Shown here piece by piece: positions 1,652-42,265 of a DNA stretch of 64,000 nt; position 1 is the first letter of the stretch; each line of letters starts with the position of its first letter. The notes beneath the pieces were generated by a model that saw only the letters and a list, made by a program, of their open reading frames with translations, did not search any database and was not told the origin of the DNA. The translations under genes and the position numbers were made by a program. The stretch covers positions 1-64,000 of IMG/VR virus record IMGVR_UViG_3300037141_000243. One strand, written 5' to 3'. The stretch is from a virus.

Positions 1652-2092
1652 TTACTGATAGAGCCCACCGTTGATTTCGTAATATCCACGAATGGAGACT
1701 GTCCAACCGGCATCACGACCAGAATAGTCTTGGGCCGCAATACCCACTAATGAGCAGTTGGTTAGATCATAAGGGGTAAGACCAAAGCTGACATCAGGAC
1801 GGACGGTCATGTTGCCAAGTAGAACATTGGTTTCGTATTGTGCTTTATATTGAGCGGAAAGCGGCTGAGTCTTCAAAAGGTAGATGGTAACATTGCAAAT
1901 CTGGTAAGGCTCGGGCGACGGCACACCACCCGTCATGGTGTTGATGTAGGTTGCCGCTTCACCTTCCAAAGCAAGTTTAATGCCTTCCTTGCCTAGATAA
2001 GATGCGGTGACATTTAATTCAGGGAAATTATCAAGGGTAGTTGATGCTACTAAACGCGAGAGGACGCCTTGGTCCACCAGGGGATTGCTCAT
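1652..2092 (-). CDS. Tail tube protein
   Basis: 146 residues, beta-rich, starting MSNPLVDQG. Length, position directly downstream of the sheath gene and upstream of the tail chaperone, and a tube-like pattern (an N-terminal strand, LALEGEAATYINTMTGG, then NVTIYLLKTQPL) fit the inner tail tube of contractile phages. Tube subunits stack as hexameric rings that DNA passes through. The ATG at 2092 follows GGAGCCCC. No sequence motif is decisive, so the call leans on gene order. Confidence 0.7.
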   Translation of the reverse strand: MSNPLVDQGVLSRLVASTTLDNFPELNVTASYLGKEGIKLALEGEAATYINTMTGGVPSPEPYQICNVTIYLLKTQPLSAQYKAQYETNVLLGNMTVRPDVSFGLTPYDLTNCSLVGIAAQDYSGRDAGWTVSIRGYYEINGGLYQ

Positions 2093-2106
2093 TTGTTAGG
2101 GGCTCC

Positions 2107-3750
2107 TTAGACGATGAGGAAATTGGTAACTGTGATATTGAACAGGATATGGATGAACCCGTTCTGTGTGATGTAGAGCAGGGTCAGGCCATCATATTCA
2201 CCGGTTCCGTAATCGCTGGGACGTTCGGAAACGTAAGCAAGGAACGGCACAGCATTAACTACAACCTTACCGTTATAAGTTCCCGCATCGATGGCGTCGG
2301 TAAAGGCCGGGCCATCTAGGCCGGTTGATATTACCTGACCATTAGCCATGCCAAAGGTCACCGCATTTTGGGCCGTAGTCAGGGCAACGCGTTGCAGCCG
2401 ATTGATGCCCACCTGGTTGTAATAAAGCGGGTTAGTTTTGTTATTGGAGCCGTTGATGATAGCGTTATCAATTTCCAATTGTTCGTTGATCTGAATCCAG
2501 TCAATCGAGTACCAATAGGTCATCTGATTGCCGTCTGCCGTGGTGCCCCAGAACAAGGTGGCCGTGCTGATGCCCCCCTGTGCCCCGGTGCCCACCACAT
2601 TGATGTTGGCGGCTTTAAGGGTGGAAAGCAGGGCGCTGTTGCCTTTGGTGGGATAGGATGTCACCCCATACAGGAAAGTGAAAGCAAAGGGTGGCACCTT
2701 GTTGGTCGCGGACGGGTTCTGATTCAATAGGTTGTAGAAGGCCGACGCTTGACTGAATTCAGTAGGCGTCGTTGCCGGCGCTTCAATAAGGGCGAAGACA
2801 TCCTTCATGGTCTTGGTATAGTAGTGATAATTTGAAAGCGTGGTAGTCACAAAGAAGTAGGTCTGTGCCGTATTGCTTTCATAGTTGGCCAGGAAGGAAA
2901 CAAACGAGCCAACACCATCCCATGAGCGCGGAATCAGGTAAGCGTAGAAATAACCATCCGCCCCCGCCGTATACGCGCTGTTGGGATTGGCAGTAATGTA
3001 GGTGATAAGCGCCGTCACACCGGCGGCGGCTTCACCAGCTCCAAGCTCCAGCACACAAACCCCAATGCTCGACCCCTGAGCAAAGAAGGTTGTCACCATC
3101 TGCACCAACTCGTTTATCCCGCGCGGGGTATAGGTAATGGTGCCGGTAGCCGGCGAGGTTAGCCCGCTGGCAACGGCGTAAGTAAACGTGGTGGCTGTGG
3201 CAACGGTTGCCAAAACCGTGCCGTTGTACCCCGCTATAGTTGACCCTGCGACGGTGGTCCAAAAGGTATCAGCAACGGTACCGAGATCGATTTGGGCATT
3301 ACCACCTGTGATAGTCATGGTCAAAGCCGGGGCAACAGTGTACTCCAGCGTAGTGCCGGCTGAGCCCACCGCCGCGAGGAAATTACCTTCAATAGCAGTA
3401 TGGCTGCCCGTACCCGCCGAGGCACTAATTGAAACCCAGGTATTTGGCCCTTCCCCAAGGCTGGCGGTAAGCGTAAGAACCACCAAGCCCGAGGTCGAGT
3501 TATAAGTACCGGAAGCGATGGTGGTTGTTGCAATGGTTGCAGTCGCGACTGCGCCAGCCGATGTTAGGCTGGAAAGGGTGATCGCCCCCGCCAGCAAAGG
3601 CGTCAGATCAGCAAGCTGGGTCAGCAACGCGCTGTTGCCGGCGGTCAGCGTGGTTCCCCCCTGGCTGATAAGTGCCCCGGTTTCCTGGAGCGTAGCCGGT
3701 GCTGGGGCAACTAGTACGCTGACCTGGACCGTAGTGATGTTATTTGTCAT
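2107..3750 (-). CDS. Tail sheath protein with inserted beta domains
   Basis: 547 residues. The C-terminal third (roughly 300-547: TLLYIT near the end, IDWIQINEQLEIDNAI, VGINRLQRVALTTAQNAV) is typical of contractile sheath subunits, as is the RGINELVQMVTTFF segment. Residues about 78-157 form an inserted beta domain (SGTYN, GTGS, TITGG) that is also present in the decoration protein at 9037-9915. Residues about 165-215 form a second one (TIAGYNGT, TTFTYAVASG). These insertions probably project from the sheath surface. Start ATG 3750 with AAGGAAC seven bases upstream. Its presence defines a myovirus-type tail. Confidence 0.85.
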   Translation of the reverse strand: MTNNITTVQVSVLVAPAPATLQETGALISQGGTTLTAGNSALLTQLADLTPLLAGAITLSSLTSAGAVATATIATTTIASGTYNSTSGLVVLTLTASLGEGPNTWVSISASAGTGSHTAIEGNFLAAVGSAGTTLEYTVAPALTMTITGGNAQIDLGTVADTFWTTVAGSTIAGYNGTVLATVATATTFTYAVASGLTSPATGTITYTPRGINELVQMVTTFFAQGSSIGVCVLELGAGEAAAGVTALITYITANPNSAYTAGADGYFYAYLIPRSWDGVGSFVSFLANYESNTAQTYFFVTTTLSNYHYYTKTMKDVFALIEAPATTPTEFSQASAFYNLLNQNPSATNKVPPFAFTFLYGVTSYPTKGNSALLSTLKAANINVVGTGAQGGISTATLFWGTTADGNQMTYWYSIDWIQINEQLEIDNAIINGSNNKTNPLYYNQVGINRLQRVALTTAQNAVTFGMANGQVISTGLDGPAFTDAIDAGTYNGKVVVNAVPFLAYVSERPSDYGTGEYDGLTLLYITQNGFIHILFNITVTNFLIV

Positions 3751-3784
3751 GTAATGAGTTCCTTGTGTTTGCGGTCAGGCATTA

Positions 3785-4318
3785 TCAGAACGCATTGGTG
3801 ACGGTTGCCCCGGCTGCAATCGGGCGATAACGCATGTAGTGCTTCCATGTGCCGGTCGTGGAGCCTACGGCAATGGTCAGGTTGATCGCACCCGCTTGGA
3901 CGACAATAGATCCAGGAACCGCCGTGATGCCCACGCCAGTCGCTTCCAGTAGTAACGCCGTATTTAGCGCCGTGCCCTGAAGAACGAGCATCTCGCCAAT
4001 TGCAGCAGAGGCGAGGGACGCGGACGCGGCAGAGATAGTGCCGGCAAGAGCGCCCAAGGTTGACAGCGTCGCCCATTGCGCGGTTGAAGCGGTTGAATCA
4101 TTCGCCGTCTGGCAAATTGAAACGAGGGAAAGAATCTGGATCGGGCCACCAATCACGCTGAAGACGTGGAGGGCGTTCGACATGACAGCGGCCCCCGTGA
4201 CTACTAGAGCGTCGCCGCCGCTACCAATGACGTCGCCGTTGGCATCGGTTTGAATGAGGACGGCGGCTTTGGTCGGGCTGGTACCGTAGGCAAGGGCGGG
4301 AATCGGGTTCTGAGACAT
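3785..4318 (-). CDS. Virion-associated protein of unknown function, Ala/Ser-rich
   Basis: 177 residues from the ATG at 4318, which has AGGAG about nine bases upstream; an in-frame start 14 codons further up lacks a ribosome site. Low-complexity Ala/Ser/Thr/Gly-rich protein that looks beta-structured: SLVSICQTANDST, an IGEMLVLQGTAL segment, and a C-terminal TGTWKHYMRYRPI. It sits directly before the sheath. It could be a tail-completion or decoration protein, but I do not recognise the family. Confidence 0.6.
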   Translation of the reverse strand: MSQNPIPALAYGTSPTKAAVLIQTDANGDVIGSGGDALVVTGAAVMSNALHVFSVIGGPIQILSLVSICQTANDSTASTAQWATLSTLGALAGTISAASASLASAAIGEMLVLQGTALNTALLLEATGVGITAVPGSIVVQAGAINLTIAVGSTTGTWKHYMRYRPIAAGATVTNAF

Positions 4319-36053: not shown

Positions 36054-36302
36054 TCACTTAGACCAATGTTTATTCGGATGCGGGCAAACGTTCCGCGCGG
36101 GGCAATCGTCGCAATACCATTCCCGGTCCAATGTCAGGATGCACTCCCACACCTTGCCTTTGTACCAGCCCTTAGCGACCGGCACGGTGTTGGCGATCAT
36201 CGTGCAGAACTCTTGCAGCTTCGCCGTTGTCGGAAGATAACGAAACGTATCCAGCTTTTGCCGGTTTGCGTCCATTTCCTCTTGGCTGAGAATGTATTGC
36301 AC
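36054..36302 (-). CDS. Small Cys-rich protein
   Basis: 82 residues from GTG at 36302 (AGGGG five bases upstream; an in-frame GTG at 36308 is too close). The C-terminus has WYCDDCPARNVCPHPNKHW, a compact cluster CxxC-x5-C likely binding zinc or iron. Function unknown. Confidence 0.45.
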   Translation of the reverse strand: MQYILSQEEMDANRQKLDTFRYLPTTAKLQEFCTMIANTVPVAKGWYKGKVWECILTLDREWYCDDCPARNVCPHPNKHWSK

Positions 36303-36342
36303 AGGCACCCCTAGTGATGAATCATGTTAATAACATACGGCC

Positions 36343-38340
36343 CTACCCACCCAGCACTAAAGTACCGCAGGCCAGCACGAGAGGGCTGATCCCATCGCCT
36401 TGCGCGAAAGGCTGCGCGAAGGCTTCCAGCACGGCGAACAGGCTACCTTTGGGCTCGCCCTTGGTGCCCATAATGACCGAAGTCACATAGCCGCGTACAA
36501 CGTGGCGAATTGATTCCGGATTGACATCCTTTTCCTTCAGACCAACCAGGATATCCCTGATTTCACCCCAGGGCCGTCCCGCTACCAAGGCACGGGCCAA
36601 ATCGACCGCCTCGGTGCTTTCCTCGGCGCTACGGAGCAGATCACGGGCTTCCTCGATGGTCTTGGCCCCGGCACACGCACCCAGCGCAACAAGGCCAGCA
36701 CGCGGGCTGCCGTGCGCCTCCTTGGCGCAGAGCGATACGATTTGACGGCCCGCACCCGTCTGAAGGATTTTCTCGGCAACGGCTACGCTTTCTAACAGGT
36801 CGATGATCAGGTTGGTTGGTACATCTTTTAAGTTGTAAGCCGTGCAGCGGGTTTTGATATTGGTGGGGATTTTCCCCAGCTCGGTCGTGCAGAGGCACCA
36901 CCACGTATCTGGCGGCGGCTCTTCCAATGATTTAAGCAGGGACGCCCATGCCGGCGCTCCGAGGCGATGGCAATTATGCACCAATACATTATTTACAAAA
37001 TATGACGGATGCTTTTCAATCTCTAAATCGTAGAACGTGACATAGCCATCACACAACGCTTGATCTCGGTTACAACTTGCGGGCAAAATTTCAATACCTG
37101 CTCGTTGGTAACTCGTAACACTGTCCACCCTAAAGATTCCAGTTTCTTTTCCTTTTTGCGATCCTTCGCTTGATTTCGTTCCGAATTGTGCCCTTTCCCA
37201 TCTACTTCTATTGCTAATTTTATATGCGGAAAAGCCAAATCCACTTTGTAATTTGTAGGGTATCCGGGTAACCTTTTCCCCAAAGAAACAGCAAACTCTA
37301 CCGCACAGTTCAAACGCTTTAGTAACATAACCTGGGGCTTCGTTAGTTTTCCATTCCCACCCCGATTTTCCGGAAGAATTAAGTTCGTCCCATTTTTTAT
37401 TCTGGTAGCTATAATTTTGTCGATTACATCCCGTCGTTTTGTGGGGTTGTTTTTCTGCATCCGTTTGGAAGACAAACGGTCCAGCTTTTTGTAATACTCC
37501 GGGGAACGAATACGAGATTCCAAAACCCCACGAGAAACAGCTTCTTTCCAATAATCTGGACGCGGCCCAGTTCTTTTTGATGCCCCCAACTCGTCTCCAC
37601 AAACTTTCGAACAAGTCTGAATTCCCAAACCATTTGAACGCACATAAAAAGGCTCCCCACAAACCGGGCACTGCCTTCGCAGGCAAGTGGTGCAAGTTAT
37701 TTTGTTTGGCGCTCTGGCTTGAAAACTTATCCCACATGAGGAGCAAGTTTTGGTCCAACGTCTTTTTGCTCTGTAATTCATCACCAATTTGTAGATCGCA
37801 CGCGGCAACCCACCCCCTAGCTGTAAAAAACAAATGCTCTTTAGAGCAACAAATAGAGGATGATCCTATGCTTATTTGCATAACCCTTGCAAGAGGAATC
37901 TTGGACCGAAAAACAGAACTAACCCGCGACAACCCAAGCCCGCACACAATTTCTTGCCCCACACCAATCTGCTCAATTGGCAAAAACCCATTACCAACAT
38001 CAATCAACGTTCCTGGAGCAAAACATTCATCTACAATAATCACGCGGGCCTGGCTGCGACCGTGCATTTTGTAGCCCAAGGTTTCGGTAATCCGCCTCAT
38101 GTCATCGATGCTGGTAAAAGTCGCAGCGTCGATCTCCTGAATGGCGTGGTCCTTGGCCCCCACTTCGGTAGCAAGGATGCGGGCCAACGTGGTCTTGCCC
38201 GTACCCGATGGACCGGAGAACAAAAAGGTGTGGTTGCTCTTGGATTTGAGGACACGCCGCAAGGATGTAACCACGGCGTCCTGACCGATCACATCTTCAA
38301 AGGTCTTGGGACGGTATTTAAGGTAGAGGGATTCGGTCAT
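36343..38340 (-). CDS. Clamp loader ATPase interrupted by an intein
   Basis: 665 residues as read. Exteins: residues 1-105 with the AAA+ N-terminus (LYLKYRPKTFEDVIGQ, Walker A GPSGTGKTT at 43-51, VIIVDE Walker B) and 457-665 (CHRLGAPAWASLLKSLEEPP, KIPTNIKTRC, C-terminal helical domain). Joined, they make a 314-residue DnaX/RFC-like loader with the DECH box restored. The intein is inserted inside the DECH box, exactly between E105 and C457. The loader opens and loads the sliding clamp (candidate at 43337-44356). Confidence 0.88.
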   Translation of the reverse strand: MTESLYLKYRPKTFEDVIGQDAVVTSLRRVLKSKSNHTFLFSGPSGTGKTTLARILATEVGAKDHAIQEIDAATFTSIDDMRRITETLGYKMHGRSQARVIIVDECFAPGTLIDVGNGFLPIEQIGVGQEIVCGLGLSRVSSVFRSKIPLARVMQISIGSSSICCSKEHLFFTARGWVAACDLQIGDELQSKKTLDQNLLLMWDKFSSQSAKQNNLHHLPAKAVPGLWGAFLCAFKWFGNSDLFESLWRRVGGIKKNWAASRLLERSCFSWGFGISYSFPGVLQKAGPFVFQTDAEKQPHKTTGCNRQNYSYQNKKWDELNSSGKSGWEWKTNEAPGYVTKAFELCGRVCCFFGEKVTRIPYKLQSGFGFSAYKISNRSRWERAQFGTKSSEGSQKGKETGIFRVDSVTSYQRAGIEILPASCNRDQALCDGYVTFYDLEIEKHPSYFVNNVLVHNCHRLGAPAWASLLKSLEEPPPDTWWCLCTTELGKIPTNIKTRCTAYNLKDVPTNLIIDLLESVAVAEKILQTGAGRQIVSLCAKEAHGSPRAGLVALGACAGAKTIEEARDLLRSAEESTEAVDLARALVAGRPWGEIRDILVGLKEKDVNPESIRHVVRGYVTSVIMGTKGEPKGSLFAVLEAFAQPFAQGDGISPLVLACGTLVLGG
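36973..38025 (-). mobile_element. Intein in clamp loader Walker B, 351 residues
   Basis: Residues 106-456 of the clamp-loader frame. Block A: Cys1 in CFAPGTLI. Block B: CSKEHLFFT with its conserved His, then GWVAACDLQIGDEL. Blocks F/G: FYDLEIEKHPSYFVNNVLVHN, with His-Asn at the end and Cys as the +1 extein residue. These are the residues for class 1 protein splicing. The frame is open throughout, yet the middle 215-250 residues look like no endonuclease and instead lie over a different, out-of-frame nuclease gene. Confidence 0.85.
37023..37781 (-). CDS. Vsr/DUF559-type (EDxHD-like) homing endonuclease nested in intein
   Basis: 252 residues read in the +1 frame relative to the intein; start ATG 37781 (TTG at 37808 also in frame). 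N-terminus has three Cys clusters (CSSCG, CTTCLRRQCPVCG, CSKVCG), probably zinc fingers for DNA binding. The C-terminus YKVDLAFPHIKLAIEVDGKG, then ERNQAKDRKKEKKLESLGWTVLRV, is a Vsr/DUF559-like nuclease fold, as in the I-Bth0305I family found with introns and fractured inteins. The whole gene lies inside the intein coding sequence (36973-38025). Confidence 0.75.
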   Translation of the reverse strand: MNYRAKRRWTKTCSSCGISFQARAPNKITCTTCLRRQCPVCGEPFYVRSNGLGIQTCSKVCGDELGASKRTGPRPDYWKEAVSRGVLESRIRSPEYYKKLDRLSSKRMQKNNPTKRRDVIDKIIATRIKNGTNLILPENRGGNGKLTKPQVMLLKRLNCAVEFAVSLGKRLPGYPTNYKVDLAFPHIKLAIEVDGKGHNSERNQAKDRKKEKKLESLGWTVLRVTNEQVLKFCPQVVTEIKRCVMAMSRSTI

Positions 38341-38660
38341 GTATGCCTCAAGGTCCTGTATTCAATGGGACGCCCCGCAACTTTTGCAGCAGCTATTCCG
38401 TACTCCATACCCCGCGATATTCCACGATCCGTATAAACTACCGTAGCAGCGGCAACAGCGCCCCAAGCCAAACCGGCATCAATACCCCATTGGCGCTCTT
38501 CAATTACTTCATCGCGCAGGATACCTGGCTGGGTGTAAAGCAAATGAGATGCGAACGGAGCTTCGCCCTTTAACAAGCAATCACACAGGGCCGACCGCGC
38601 ATATTTTAGATTAGCCTCAACATCTCCGGCGTATGGGCTTTCCACAATCACCAATCTCAT
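38337..38660 (-). CDS. SLOG-fold DUF7768/DUF4406-like protein
   Basis: 107 residues. VIVESPYAGDVEANLKYARSAL, ASHLLYTQPGILRD, ERQWGIDAGLAWGAV and YTDRGISRGMEYGIAAAK match the pattern of small SLOG/nucleoside 2-deoxyribosyltransferase-like proteins widely carried by phages (nucleotide-binding, possible ligand sensor). Overlaps the clamp-loader start by four bases. Confidence 0.65.
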   Translation of the reverse strand: MRLVIVESPYAGDVEANLKYARSALCDCLLKGEAPFASHLLYTQPGILRDEVIEERQWGIDAGLAWGAVAAATVVYTDRGISRGMEYGIAAAKVAGRPIEYRTLRHT

Positions 38661-38661
38661 A

Positions 38662-39699
38662 TCAATTACCGCTTTCCTTTATTGCCGCGACAGCTTTATC
38701 AGCGGACCCTTTAAGAAATATGAGTACGTGCTGATGAGTTCGACCTAGCTTGCGCGTGGCGTTAAAAGGACGACCGGCCCGGATACTAAGGCTGCCCAAC
38801 ATCGTCAAACGGATTGCATCGTTGTAAAGATGCAGCCCGGCGCGTTGGAAAGCATTTATCGTCCCAGGAACAAACCCCACACAATTACCATCCTTGCCCC
38901 TGACTTCCCCAACTACAAAAATAGCAAAGCGGTTTAGTTTCAATCGAGTAACGACACTTTCTATGATGCCAGAATACTCGGGCTCAAACTTGTCCCATTT
39001 CAACGTGGAGATATCTTGTGGATCATTACTATATTGTTCGAGATCAACGTACGGAGGACAACTGTAAATACAGTCCAATGATTCAGGCTTTACAACCTTT
39101 GCTGAACTTCGCGCATCGCAAACCACGTATTTGGGAGTATTGGTTTTACAAATCCTTTGAGCCTGTTCGTTGTTTGCCTCGACCTGCTCGGGTCGGATAT
39201 CCGTTCCCAAGTATTTGTAACCCAACTTAGATGCCACAATACCGGCACAGCAACCACCCACAAACGGGTCAAAAACAAACCCACCCTTCGGCACAAACCA
39301 TTTATACATCAGCTCGCAAAGCACGGGGTCAAACGACGACGTGCCTGTTTGGCCAGAAGTGTTTATCTTTCGGGATACCGGATCATCCCTAAGGGTAGCG
39401 CCTTCGGCGCTACCCTTAGCCTTCCCGTTCCCACCTCGCGCCTTATCGCGATTTTGCTGATCCACCTTTTCCTTGAAATAACGAGGGTCTTTGGCAGCGG
39501 CACTGAATCGTAAAAGATTCTCCGCCCGACCCAGCACCCGATCCATCCCCAAGGATAACCACGCAGCCTTCCGATCTTGCCATTCACCCTGCCGCGCATC
39601 CAGCACTGAAAACGGCGGTATCCCAAATTTATCGACGAGTCCACCCCCGTGGGTTTCAAACACGGCGTCCTTCTCGAAGAGACTTTTGTATTTTGCCAT
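38662..39699 (-). CDS. DNA methyltransferase 1 (SPPY-type variant SCPPY)
   Basis: 345 residues from the ATG at 39699, just after the polymerase stop. VFDPFVGGCCAGIVASKLGYKYLGTDIR is motif I plus the SAM-binding strands, and YSCPPYVDLEQYSND is motif IV (S/D/N-x-PPY), placing it among N4-cytosine or N6-adenine enzymes. GRTHQHVLIFLKG ends the catalytic fold. A 14-bp perfect hairpin is embedded at residues about 95-104 of the coding sequence. It may protect phage DNA from host restriction. Confidence 0.8.
   Translation of the reverse strand: MAKYKSLFEKDAVFETHGGGLVDKFGIPPFSVLDARQGEWQDRKAAWLSLGMDRVLGRAENLLRFSAAAKDPRYFKEKVDQQNRDKARGGNGKAKGSAEGATLRDDPVSRKINTSGQTGTSSFDPVLCELMYKWFVPKGGFVFDPFVGGCCAGIVASKLGYKYLGTDIRPEQVEANNEQAQRICKTNTPKYVVCDARSSAKVVKPESLDCIYSCPPYVDLEQYSNDPQDISTLKWDKFEPEYSGIIESVVTRLKLNRFAIFVVGEVRGKDGNCVGFVPGTINAFQRAGLHLYNDAIRLTMLGSLSIRAGRPFNATRKLGRTHQHVLIFLKGSADKAVAAIKESGN
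39389..39419. repeat. Perfect 14-bp hairpin inside methyltransferase gene
   Basis: CTAAGGGTAGCGCC, loop TTC, then the exact reverse complement. It is in frame within the methyltransferase and encodes AKGSAEGATLR. The core AGGGTAGCGCC also occurs in the hairpin-rich intergenic region near 27.67 kb. Confidence 0.85.
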
Positions 39700-39700
39700 C

Positions 39701-42265
39701 TTATTTTTTCCACGTGTTAGATGCGTACTTACCAATCTCGTCCATATCACAGAGATTAGGACCGATGGACATTTCCACCACCAGCGGCACATTCAGGAAC
39801 GGGTAGGTCTTAGTCAGCAAGGTATCAATCTTTTCCTCGGCATAATCATCAAAACCCTTAACTGGAAAGATACTGGTAAGATCATCATGGATATTACAAA
39901 TGGGCTGGAAATACCAGTCTTCCTTTTCCGAAAGTGCGTTCATTCCGTCGATCACAATTTCACTCGCTAGATTTTGGATAGGGGCATTGATAAGCTGGTT
40001 CGGTGAGATTGGGGCGCGGCGTCGTATTCCCATTGCATTCTCAACATACCCCTGCTCCTTGAAGTCAGCGATGATGCGTTCCTGCCATTCCTTGACCCCT
40101 GAAAAGGTCTTCCAAAATTCCTTGTAAAGCCTACCCAGAGATCCCTCAGGCAAACCCACTTGTCTTTCGGCGGTCGATTGCTGCGCGCCAAAGAACAGGG
40201 CGAAAACCCACCCACCCTTAACCGTCTGGCGAAAACCCTTCATGACGCCTTTGTCTTTTATGTATTTCTTACCCCCAACAACAACAGGAAATTCGTAAGC
40301 AATCTGCTCGGCCCAATCCATGTGCACGTCATAATCTTCCCAGAGCATTTTAGCGTAAACTTTGTCCTGTGACTCCATCGCTATACAACGACCCTCAATC
40401 TGCCCGTAATCCACGGAGCAAAGCAGATGGCCCTCAGGGGCGGCGATCTGACGACGGATTTCTTTTCCATCATCAGTTCTCTTGGGCAGATTTTGTGAAT
40501 TTGGGTCCTCTGAACTCGACCGACCTGTAACCGTACTGAATCCATTCAATATCGGATGCAGCTTTCCATCAGGGTAAACGTATTTGTGACCCTTGGGCCA
40601 TACATAAGTTGACGCCAGCTTGGACGGCGCGCGCCAGTCCAACACCTTTTTGGCAATCGGGGCGTCGATCTTTTCCAGCACGGATTTGGTTACGGAATAG
40701 CTGGCCTCGCCGCCGTTGTAGCCTTCGCTCTTGCCAGCATCCGACCCCACAATATCGCGGAACATCTTGACACAGTCGGTATCCGATCCGGGCTTAAAGT
40801 CCTTTTTGTATTTCTTACGGAAGGCTGCCACATCCGGATCGGTCGCGATGGCCTTTGTCGCCTTGGCAATGGCCGTGCTCAATTTGTCATCGAGGCGGTC
40901 GGCCTGCTCAAAGTCGACCGGCATCCCCTTGATTTGTGTTAGGACAAGCGTAGGAATACGACGAATGCGGCGCTGGTATAGTTTAGTCAGTCCATCCAGC
41001 TCCAATTCCTCGGCCTGGTTCCAAAACAGCTCGAGACAGTATTTGGCGTCCACCGCGTTGTAGGGTAGGATCGCTTCCAGCGGTTCGCTTTCCATGTTTT
41101 TAGTATCGACATTAGACAGCGTCTTGATGTTAATACCAAAGCGGTTGAGTGTGATGAAACCCAACCCAAGGCAACTCGTATCCTTTGATGCCTGCTCTTG
41201 ATCCGGCTTACCACCCACCCTTTCGTCCAGGGTATAGGCTTGGACCATCGAGTCACCCCATTGGGTACCGCGCAACAATTCCTTACCAAATTTGACCGCC
41301 GTCCATTCCATCTCGAATGCCAAATTGTGGGCTATCTTGCGGACAGGGGCTTTCAGGTACGCGAGGAAAGCCTGCCGGATCATTTCCTTGGCCGGCTTAC
41401 TCCATTTGGCTTCTGGGTGGTCGTAGGGGAAGGCAATCGCCTTACCTTTGATTGCAATCCCAATGGACAGGATTTTGGTTTCGGGGCGGTAAGGGCGCAA
41501 ATGACTGGTTTCATAGTCAAGCCCGGATTCAGGCTCGCTGGCGGCCTTTTCCAGAAAGCGGACAATGTCCCCTGCCGCCCGTGGATCGCACCAGTCGACG
41601 CTTGTGAGGCCCGTGAACGCCTTTTCCCGGCTATGGAAAGGGGGCGGGGGCAGATCGTTGATCTCAGCAAAGGCCCGGCGCAGGTCAAGGCGGAAAACAT
41701 GCTCCTCCTTGGATTCCCCGCTGCGGCGGGCTGAGCGGGCCACAAAGGTGGGGTCCAGCATGGGGAAATACCAGCAGACGTGGTTACCTATCTTGACGGG
41801 TATTTTCCTGCCACGCCATTTGACAATACCATTCTGTTGGAGCGCCCAATGTAGGGGCACATTCCCCATACCGAAGATCGCTAGGGGCTGAGCAACAATG
41901 ATGTCTTTTTCAACACGCGGTCTGCAACACTCTCTCTCGATAGGTTCAGGATCACGTCCGGCTGGCGTTCTACAATTGATGACATTGTTAAAGCGTATTC
42001 GGTCGCGCCACTTCTTAGGAATCTGTTTGAGCAAAAGCTGGCCCGATGTGCCGGCAAAATGCTCGCCCTGTTTATCATCCTCGGCGGTAGGGGCTTCCCC
42101 CAATATGTAGATGTCAGGCTGCTTATCGCCCGACGCTTTCATCTTGGGGTGGTCAAGGTCGGCTGTATTCAGCGGGCATCCACGGCAACCCAACCTGCGA
42201 TACAAATCAACAGACCCAGAATCACCGCTGGCTTTTGCTAACGTCTGTGCCCCAAAAAACCCCAA
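39701..42265 (-). CDS. DNA polymerase I with N-terminal uracil-DNA glycosylase domain
   Basis: 854 residues. Residues about 25-200 match family 4 UDG: CRGCPLN, GEAPTAEDDKQGEHFAG, NVINCRTPAGRDPEP and ECCRP, giving the four-Cys iron-sulphur pattern. Then a 3'-5' exonuclease (DYETSHL, IAHNLAFEMEW, YNAVDAKYCLEL) and a family A polymerase: motif A SVDYGQIEGR, motif B KGFRQTVKGGWVFALFFG, motif C NIHDDL. The start is TTG 42265, with AGGGG nine bases upstream lying in the 3' end of the HNH gene. A UDG-Pol I fusion is known from SPO1-like phages. Confidence 0.9.
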   Translation of the reverse strand: MGFFGAQTLAKASGDSGSVDLYRRLGCRGCPLNTADLDHPKMKASGDKQPDIYILGEAPTAEDDKQGEHFAGTSGQLLLKQIPKKWRDRIRFNNVINCRTPAGRDPEPIERECCRPRVEKDIIVAQPLAIFGMGNVPLHWALQQNGIVKWRGRKIPVKIGNHVCWYFPMLDPTFVARSARRSGESKEEHVFRLDLRRAFAEINDLPPPPFHSREKAFTGLTSVDWCDPRAAGDIVRFLEKAASEPESGLDYETSHLRPYRPETKILSIGIAIKGKAIAFPYDHPEAKWSKPAKEMIRQAFLAYLKAPVRKIAHNLAFEMEWTAVKFGKELLRGTQWGDSMVQAYTLDERVGGKPDQEQASKDTSCLGLGFITLNRFGINIKTLSNVDTKNMESEPLEAILPYNAVDAKYCLELFWNQAEELELDGLTKLYQRRIRRIPTLVLTQIKGMPVDFEQADRLDDKLSTAIAKATKAIATDPDVAAFRKKYKKDFKPGSDTDCVKMFRDIVGSDAGKSEGYNGGEASYSVTKSVLEKIDAPIAKKVLDWRAPSKLASTYVWPKGHKYVYPDGKLHPILNGFSTVTGRSSSEDPNSQNLPKRTDDGKEIRRQIAAPEGHLLCSVDYGQIEGRCIAMESQDKVYAKMLWEDYDVHMDWAEQIAYEFPVVVGGKKYIKDKGVMKGFRQTVKGGWVFALFFGAQQSTAERQVGLPEGSLGRLYKEFWKTFSGVKEWQERIIADFKEQGYVENAMGIRRRAPISPNQLINAPIQNLASEIVIDGMNALSEKEDWYFQPICNIHDDLTSIFPVKGFDDYAEEKIDTLLTKTYPFLNVPLVVEMSIGPNLCDMDEIGKYASNTWKK

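Follow-up and report, generated by a model that had tools for sequence, protein, structure and literature searches.

Inteins of the textbook type carry their endonuclease as an in-frame domain. A different layout was reportedly described in 2009 by Dassa and colleagues, who are said to have found fractured phage genes with split inteins, gp41-1 included, and Vsr-like nucleases going with these fractured genes. Out-of-frame nuclease genes are found in the ShiLan-type insertions of actinophage methylases, in which HNH genes are hidden within insertions that are not inteins (Arsenault, Gosselin and Gogarten 2025, PMC11855218). In ShiLan a splicing domain is missing, and the insertion presumably persists in the protein; the authors identified no RBS and leave open how the nuclease is translated (PMC11855218). 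For the large terminase of a Brucellaphage, a passage in the literature mentions an out-of-frame HNH gene and calls it putative intein-encoded (PMC4422536).

A clamp loader intein with a nuclease gene in the +1 frame

The locus described here lies in a stretch of viral DNA of 64,000 nucleotides (the window). It comprises a clamp loader gene, an intein within it and a nuclease gene nested in the intein, and every feature is located on the minus strand:

36343–38340, minus strand: clamp loader precursor (DNA polymerase III gamma/tau-like), intein included, a single ORF of 665 residues
38026–38340, minus strand: N-extein, 105 residues, ending with ...VIIVDE at the Walker B box
36973–38025, minus strand: intein, 351 residues, from Cys1 (38025) to His350-Asn351 (Asn351 at 36973), followed by the +1 Cys
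37756–38025, minus strand: N-terminal half of the Hint domain, intein residues 1–90, blocks A and B (pLDDT 94–98; gp41-1 PDB profile match)
37156–37695, minus strand: intein-frame filler, residues 111–290, predicted mostly disordered, under the nuclease core (pLDDT mostly <50)
36973–37134, minus strand: C-terminal half of the Hint domain, residues 298–351, blocks F and G
36343–36972, minus strand: C-extein, first residues CHRL
37023–37808, minus strand: nested nuclease gene in the +1 frame, wholly inside the intein, stop codon TAG at 37023–37025
37599–37745, minus strand: zinc-finger region of the nuclease, Cys22/25 to Cys66/70 (Cys47, 50, 66 and 70 invariant in 60 sequences)
37104–37259, minus strand: EDxHD nuclease core with Asp190, Glu201, Asp203, His207 and Asp216 invariant in the alignment of 60 sequences
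37813–37818, minus strand: Shine-Dalgarno (SD)-like AGGGGG upstream of TTG 37808 (anti-SD duplex -9.9 kcal/mol)

The intein interrupts the clamp loader precisely at the Walker B box. The clamp loader is 41–43% identical to intein-less phage clamp loaders, and across VDECHRL (Walker B) the joined exteins align gap-free with their counterparts in Pseudanabaena phage Pan1 and Edwardsiella phage ZHS, both of which are without an intein. A contiguous intein with all splicing residues had been proposed for this locus, and we indeed find Cys1, the block-B His64, His350-Asn351 and the +1 Cys in the one 665-residue ORF. In an alignment of 58 relatives Cys1 and Asn351 never vary, and the conservation of His64 and His350 reaches 90% or more. 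On the host frame Pfam gave a match to Intein_splicing (1.1e-5), which is below the gathering score, and in the PDB gp41-1 and other inteins came out on top in both structural and profile comparisons (gp41-1 profile E 8.6e-21). By its splicing residues, its Hint fold and a precise, conserved insertion site for which intein-less alleles exist, the intein belongs with the class 1 Hint inteins. In the structural model residues 1–90 and approximately 300–351 mostly reach a pLDDT >90, most of residues 114–286 stay <50, and this low-confidence middle coincides with the part that lies under the nuclease core. In the intein frame the overprinted segment is hence predicted to be disordered and to join two well-folded Hint halves.

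The nested gene encodes 261 residues when read from TTG 37808 or 252 residues from ATG 37781. It spans the intein from residue 73 or 82 (start) to 335 (stop) and overlaps the edges of both structured halves. The original prediction of a complete I-Bth0305I/Vsr-like nuclease gene in the +1 frame, with both frames open, agrees with a Pfam match of the nested ORF to DUF559 (4e-12) and with the lack of any stop in the intein frame. AlphaFold2 with family alignments modeled the nuclease with a mean pLDDT of 91. The best PDB match of this model in Foldseek was 3r3p, the catalytic domain of I-Bth0305I (E 2.3e-3, probability 1.00), and a profile match to I-Bth0305I had an E of 0.0011. Fold and acidic/His catalytic residues place it among the EDxHD/Vsr-like homing endonucleases.

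The window is part of a viral IMG/VR record of 72,849 bases, and a search of this record for a second copy of the nested intein found one copy only. An IMG/VR sequence (L008) is identical to that of the window. At 39701–42265 on the minus strand of the window, a single 854-residue ORF joins a uracil-DNA glycosylase domain to a family A DNA polymerase that includes an exonuclease domain.

A large intein family shares the nested layout

Relatives were gathered with a nuclease profile from phage records, IMG/VR and bacterial and archaeal genomes. Profiles of Hint-N, Hint-C and the nuclease were run over all six frames, and after removal of near-identical loci 146 remained in which both Hint halves surround the nuclease. 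The nuclease is located in the +1 frame of the intein in 145 of these 146 nonredundant loci, and in 144 of the 145 the intein frame is free of stops from Cys1 to the terminal Asn. The nested loci come from IMG/VR contigs (123), genomes (15) and phage records (7). The genes that they interrupt encode ATPases, namely clamp loaders, SF2/SNF2 helicases and terminases. The insertion site is DE/C (the slash marks the insertion point) in the Walker B/DExx box in 81 of 89 cases, and the residue following the intein is Cys or Ser. In this large family, which counts at least 145 distinct inteins in phages and bacterial genomes, an out-of-frame nuclease is the rule. The doubt attached to the original prediction, that relatives might not conserve the nested frame, is removed by these counts, and the rarity implied when the arrangement was called unusual is not borne out.

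The in-frame layout of canonical HEN-containing inteins was found only in L133 (2322–5000), an archaeal Methanosuratincola MAG with a UvrD helicase, a Walker B intein and a DUF559 nuclease in frame; the window and 145 of the 146 loci do not show it. In Vibrio phage 1.266.O (L005, MG592631) a Mu F-like head protein with an intein is encoded on the minus strand (1925–4051), and a DUF559 nuclease ORF (2375–3109, plus strand, Pfam 1.9e-10) lies antisense inside this intein, so the overlap of nuclease and intein arose in at least two orientations. Two nuclease members (L090 and L131) are apparently free-standing, and an alignment of the free-standing and odd nuclease members contained no conserved stretch. 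In L278 (3549–4121) the nuclease frame has an internal stop with the intein frame open, and this nuclease is possibly decaying. Apparent decay in L110, L124, L128 and L129 proved to be an artefact in which the profile had overrun the true stop. In the annotated phage records L001–L004, L006 and L007 the nested sense-strand nuclease is unannotated; these records give the host ORF alone, under the names helicase, coil containing or hypothetical protein.

Site polymorphism and mobility

Among Vibrio phages that share the same helicase gene (approximately 85–90% DNA identity) we found three states of the insertion site: an exact empty site QDE/CHH in phages 141O35-1 and 234P10, the nested intein in phages 1.027, K391 and 1.088, and a mini-intein of another lineage with about 150 residues in phages K389 and K459. 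As far as sequence comparison goes, this presence/absence polymorphism is the pattern expected of homing and indicates mobility.

We considered whether the nested nuclease could be a parasite that homes by itself into inteins and does not serve as their mobility partner, as the existence of the free-standing members L090 and L131 and the occupation of the same site by mini-inteins without nuclease might suggest. However, both intein and nuclease are missing from the empty alleles, and the gap ends exactly at the intein boundary. Furthermore Hint and nuclease distances are correlated (Mantel r 0.57; partial r 0.27 given the extein), and no close pair of inteins with and without nuclease was found among the relatives. 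A self-homing parasite is thus unlikely, and we regard the nuclease as the probable mobility partner of the intein that surrounds it.

L193 and L196 contain mini-inteins of a different lineage, about 150 residues long, exactly at the Walker B site of the nested inteins. In L192 and L197 the Vibrio helicase has, beside the Walker B intein, an additional Walker A intein (GK/C...HN/T; short in L197).

Start site and expression of the nuclease

For the window the start of the nuclease is ambiguous: the TTG is preceded by the SD-like site listed above, and no SD-like site is present upstream of the ATG. The 252-residue ORF (37023–37781) proposed originally is correct if read from the ATG, but the TTG with its SD-like site yields the longer version. 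In the family SD-like sites (AAGAGGAG, AAAGGAG, GGAGGA and similar) often precede starts located just before the first CxxC. They are enriched in comparison to control start codons in the same loci (KS p 1e-13, n=135), and about half of the 135 loci have a site of -6 kcal/mol or stronger. The distance from the internal start to the zinc finger has a median of 7 codons. A stop closes the nuclease frame no more than 5 codons before the chosen start in 32/135 loci and no more than 10 codons before it in 56/135; L001, L010 and L011 are examples of such closure. Since a promoter scan of the intein found no sigma-70-like site, translation of the nuclease from the host message is the simplest assumption.

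Two routes to a nuclease from this message were compared. By programmed +1 frameshifting one message would give either the splicing precursor or a fusion of N-extein, Hint-N and nuclease, an option that the original prediction had left standing. The nuclease is always in the +1 frame, which is the direction such a shift needs, and in some loci its frame is open well upstream. In contrast, the frame closure just upstream of the start, within 10 codons in more than a third of the loci, means that a frameshift fusion cannot be the general route, the host frame contains no stop or pause codon that would drive a shift, and both the SD-like sites and the short distance between start and zinc finger speak for a start of the nuclease's own. 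We therefore rejected programmed frameshifting, which appears quite improbable. Internal initiation is the likelier route, judging by the SD-like sites before the start and a nuclease frame that often opens just upstream of it.

Selection on the two frames

In order to define how many stops would be expected in the intein frame, the nuclease protein was held fixed, its synonymous codons were shuffled and intein-frame stops were counted. The window has 0 stops in comparison to a mean of 15.5 in the shuffles, and none of 300 shuffles matched it. Across 144 loci, 1 stop was observed in the intein frame against about 1,241 expected. The third frame, which served as a control, showed no avoidance (2,299 stops observed, 2,101 expected). 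The effect is visible at a single codon: the Tyr of the active-site NYK motif is encoded by TAC in 120/120 loci, because TAT-AA would create a stop (TAA) in the intein frame, whereas other Tyr codons of the nuclease are divided between TAT (275) and TAC (230). We read the apparently conserved LQS of the intein frame as a shadow of the nuclease-frame NYKV together with stop avoidance.

Among the nested inteins, L015 alone has its intein frame interrupted, by a TAG at 4180–4182. This TAG could be a suppressed stop, an error or a first step to a fractured gene. Neighboring genes in L015 end with each of the three stop codons, and a good start for a separate C-half was not seen there.

Substitutions between close pairs fall mostly on the third position of the nuclease codons (35/41 in L190/L191 and 20/27 in L003/L007). 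We further counted substitution classes over 15 disjoint pairs and related them to expectation. Changes that are silent in the nuclease but alter the intein occur at 1.7–2.1x expectation, those silent in the intein but altering the nuclease at 0.7x and those altering both proteins at 0.5–0.8x; changes silent in both frames reach 2.6–4.1x, with small counts. From these ratios it follows that purifying selection clearly acts on the nuclease and that selection on the overlapped intein stretch is weak apart from stop avoidance.

If only one of the two frames were real, the intein would be dead or the second ORF a by-product of composition. Long second ORFs can indeed arise by chance in some compositions, but the stop avoidance goes far beyond what synonymous shuffling predicts, and a chance ORF was rejected on these grounds. 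Also the conservation of the splicing residues at both ends, of the catalytic residues in a nuclease under purifying selection, and the high-confidence models for both products leave hardly any room for a single real frame. Removal of the insertion as RNA by a group I or II intron, with the Hint similarity as a relic, is dismissed as extremely improbable: I-Bth0305I-type nucleases do occur in group I introns as well, but an Rfam search of 36300–38700 detected no intron match and no catalytic RNA core (a sub-threshold TarB match only), the intein has precise, conserved boundaries and splicing residues, and an intron would have no need of the open reading frame that is maintained here.

A model for the nested intein

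Very probably, then, the locus combines a mobile class-1-type Walker B intein with a separately expressed homing endonuclease overprinted in the +1 frame. We propose the following sequence of events. The mobile intein occupies the Walker B box of the clamp loader (DE/C) and carries the homing endonuclease gene overprinted on its middle. Translation of the host frame would give a precursor in which the two Hint halves fold, joined by a mostly disordered filler of about 200 residues, and the halves would then splice out and restore the clamp loader. The overprinted insert of 250 residues could be a drag on splicing. Ribosomes that initiate separately at an internal start directly downstream of Hint block B would produce a free zinc-finger/EDxHD nuclease. 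We infer that this nuclease cuts intein-less alleles at the Walker B codons and that recombination then copies the intein in, i.e. homing. Selection would act on one frame to preserve the nuclease protein and on the other mainly to keep it free of stops, and a large family of phage inteins that target the Walker B motifs of ATPases would descend from an ancestor with the nested arrangement.

The closest solved Hint domain is that of gp41-1, which we take to be a naturally fractured split intein. For this reason the data are compatible with the nested intein being an intermediate between a standard and a split intein. One stop in the filler together with a new start before Hint-C would turn it into a split intein of the gp41-1 type, its halves separated by a free-standing nuclease. 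That overprinted-nuclease inteins were the evolutionary source of the fractured split inteins is a tentative suggestion which we hold to be possible, though rather doubtful. No fractured member of the nested-nuclease family, i.e. no split descendant, was found among the 146 loci, in which L015 has its single TAG.

A whole intein family divides splicing and mobility between two proteins on the same DNA, and this layout allows expression of the nuclease independent of the host protein. With about 200 double-coding codons at no fewer than 145 distinct loci, it is a clear case of stable overprinting in bacterial viruses. It also suggests concretely how contiguous inteins could become split ones, a long-standing question for the gp41-1-type inteins used in protein engineering. 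Annotation pipelines miss such nested nucleases, as the annotated phage records with their lone host ORFs illustrate.

Comparison with known systems

In a literature search that covered few subscription papers we found no true intein with an out-of-frame EDxHD nuclease and no family of this kind; priority is unproven. The ShiLan insertion resembles the window intein in being a mobile insertion in a phage gene with an open host frame, an out-of-frame nuclease of the homing type, a poorly structured host-frame product and a patchy distribution. It differs in having an HNH nuclease and no Hint domain in the host frame, whereas the window contains a full Hint intein with a DUF559/EDxHD nuclease and its family has SD-like sites before many starts. 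The Brucellaphage terminase likewise has a nuclease ORF out of frame in a phage gene, termed intein-encoded in passing; by its description the nuclease is of the HNH family, and splicing motifs are unreported in the passage concerned (PMC4422536).

Fractured split inteins are also located in phage genes of DNA metabolism and have a Vsr-like nuclease gene between the Hint halves. There the host ORF has become two genes with a free-standing nuclease between them, whereas in the window the ORF is continuous and the nuclease superimposed on it. With I-Bth0305I (3r3p) the nested nuclease shares the EDxHD catalytic core, but its accessory region is a different one, with an N-terminal zinc-finger domain, and it is nested in an intein. 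Canonical large inteins such as PI-SceI, or L133 from the same family, likewise unite Hint domain and homing nuclease in one mobile element; in these the nuclease is part of the intein polypeptide, in the window it is a separate protein from another frame. Precedents are known in the hidden HNH genes of non-intein insertions and in the fractured split inteins, and the family of the window is a variation on the HEN-bearing inteins.
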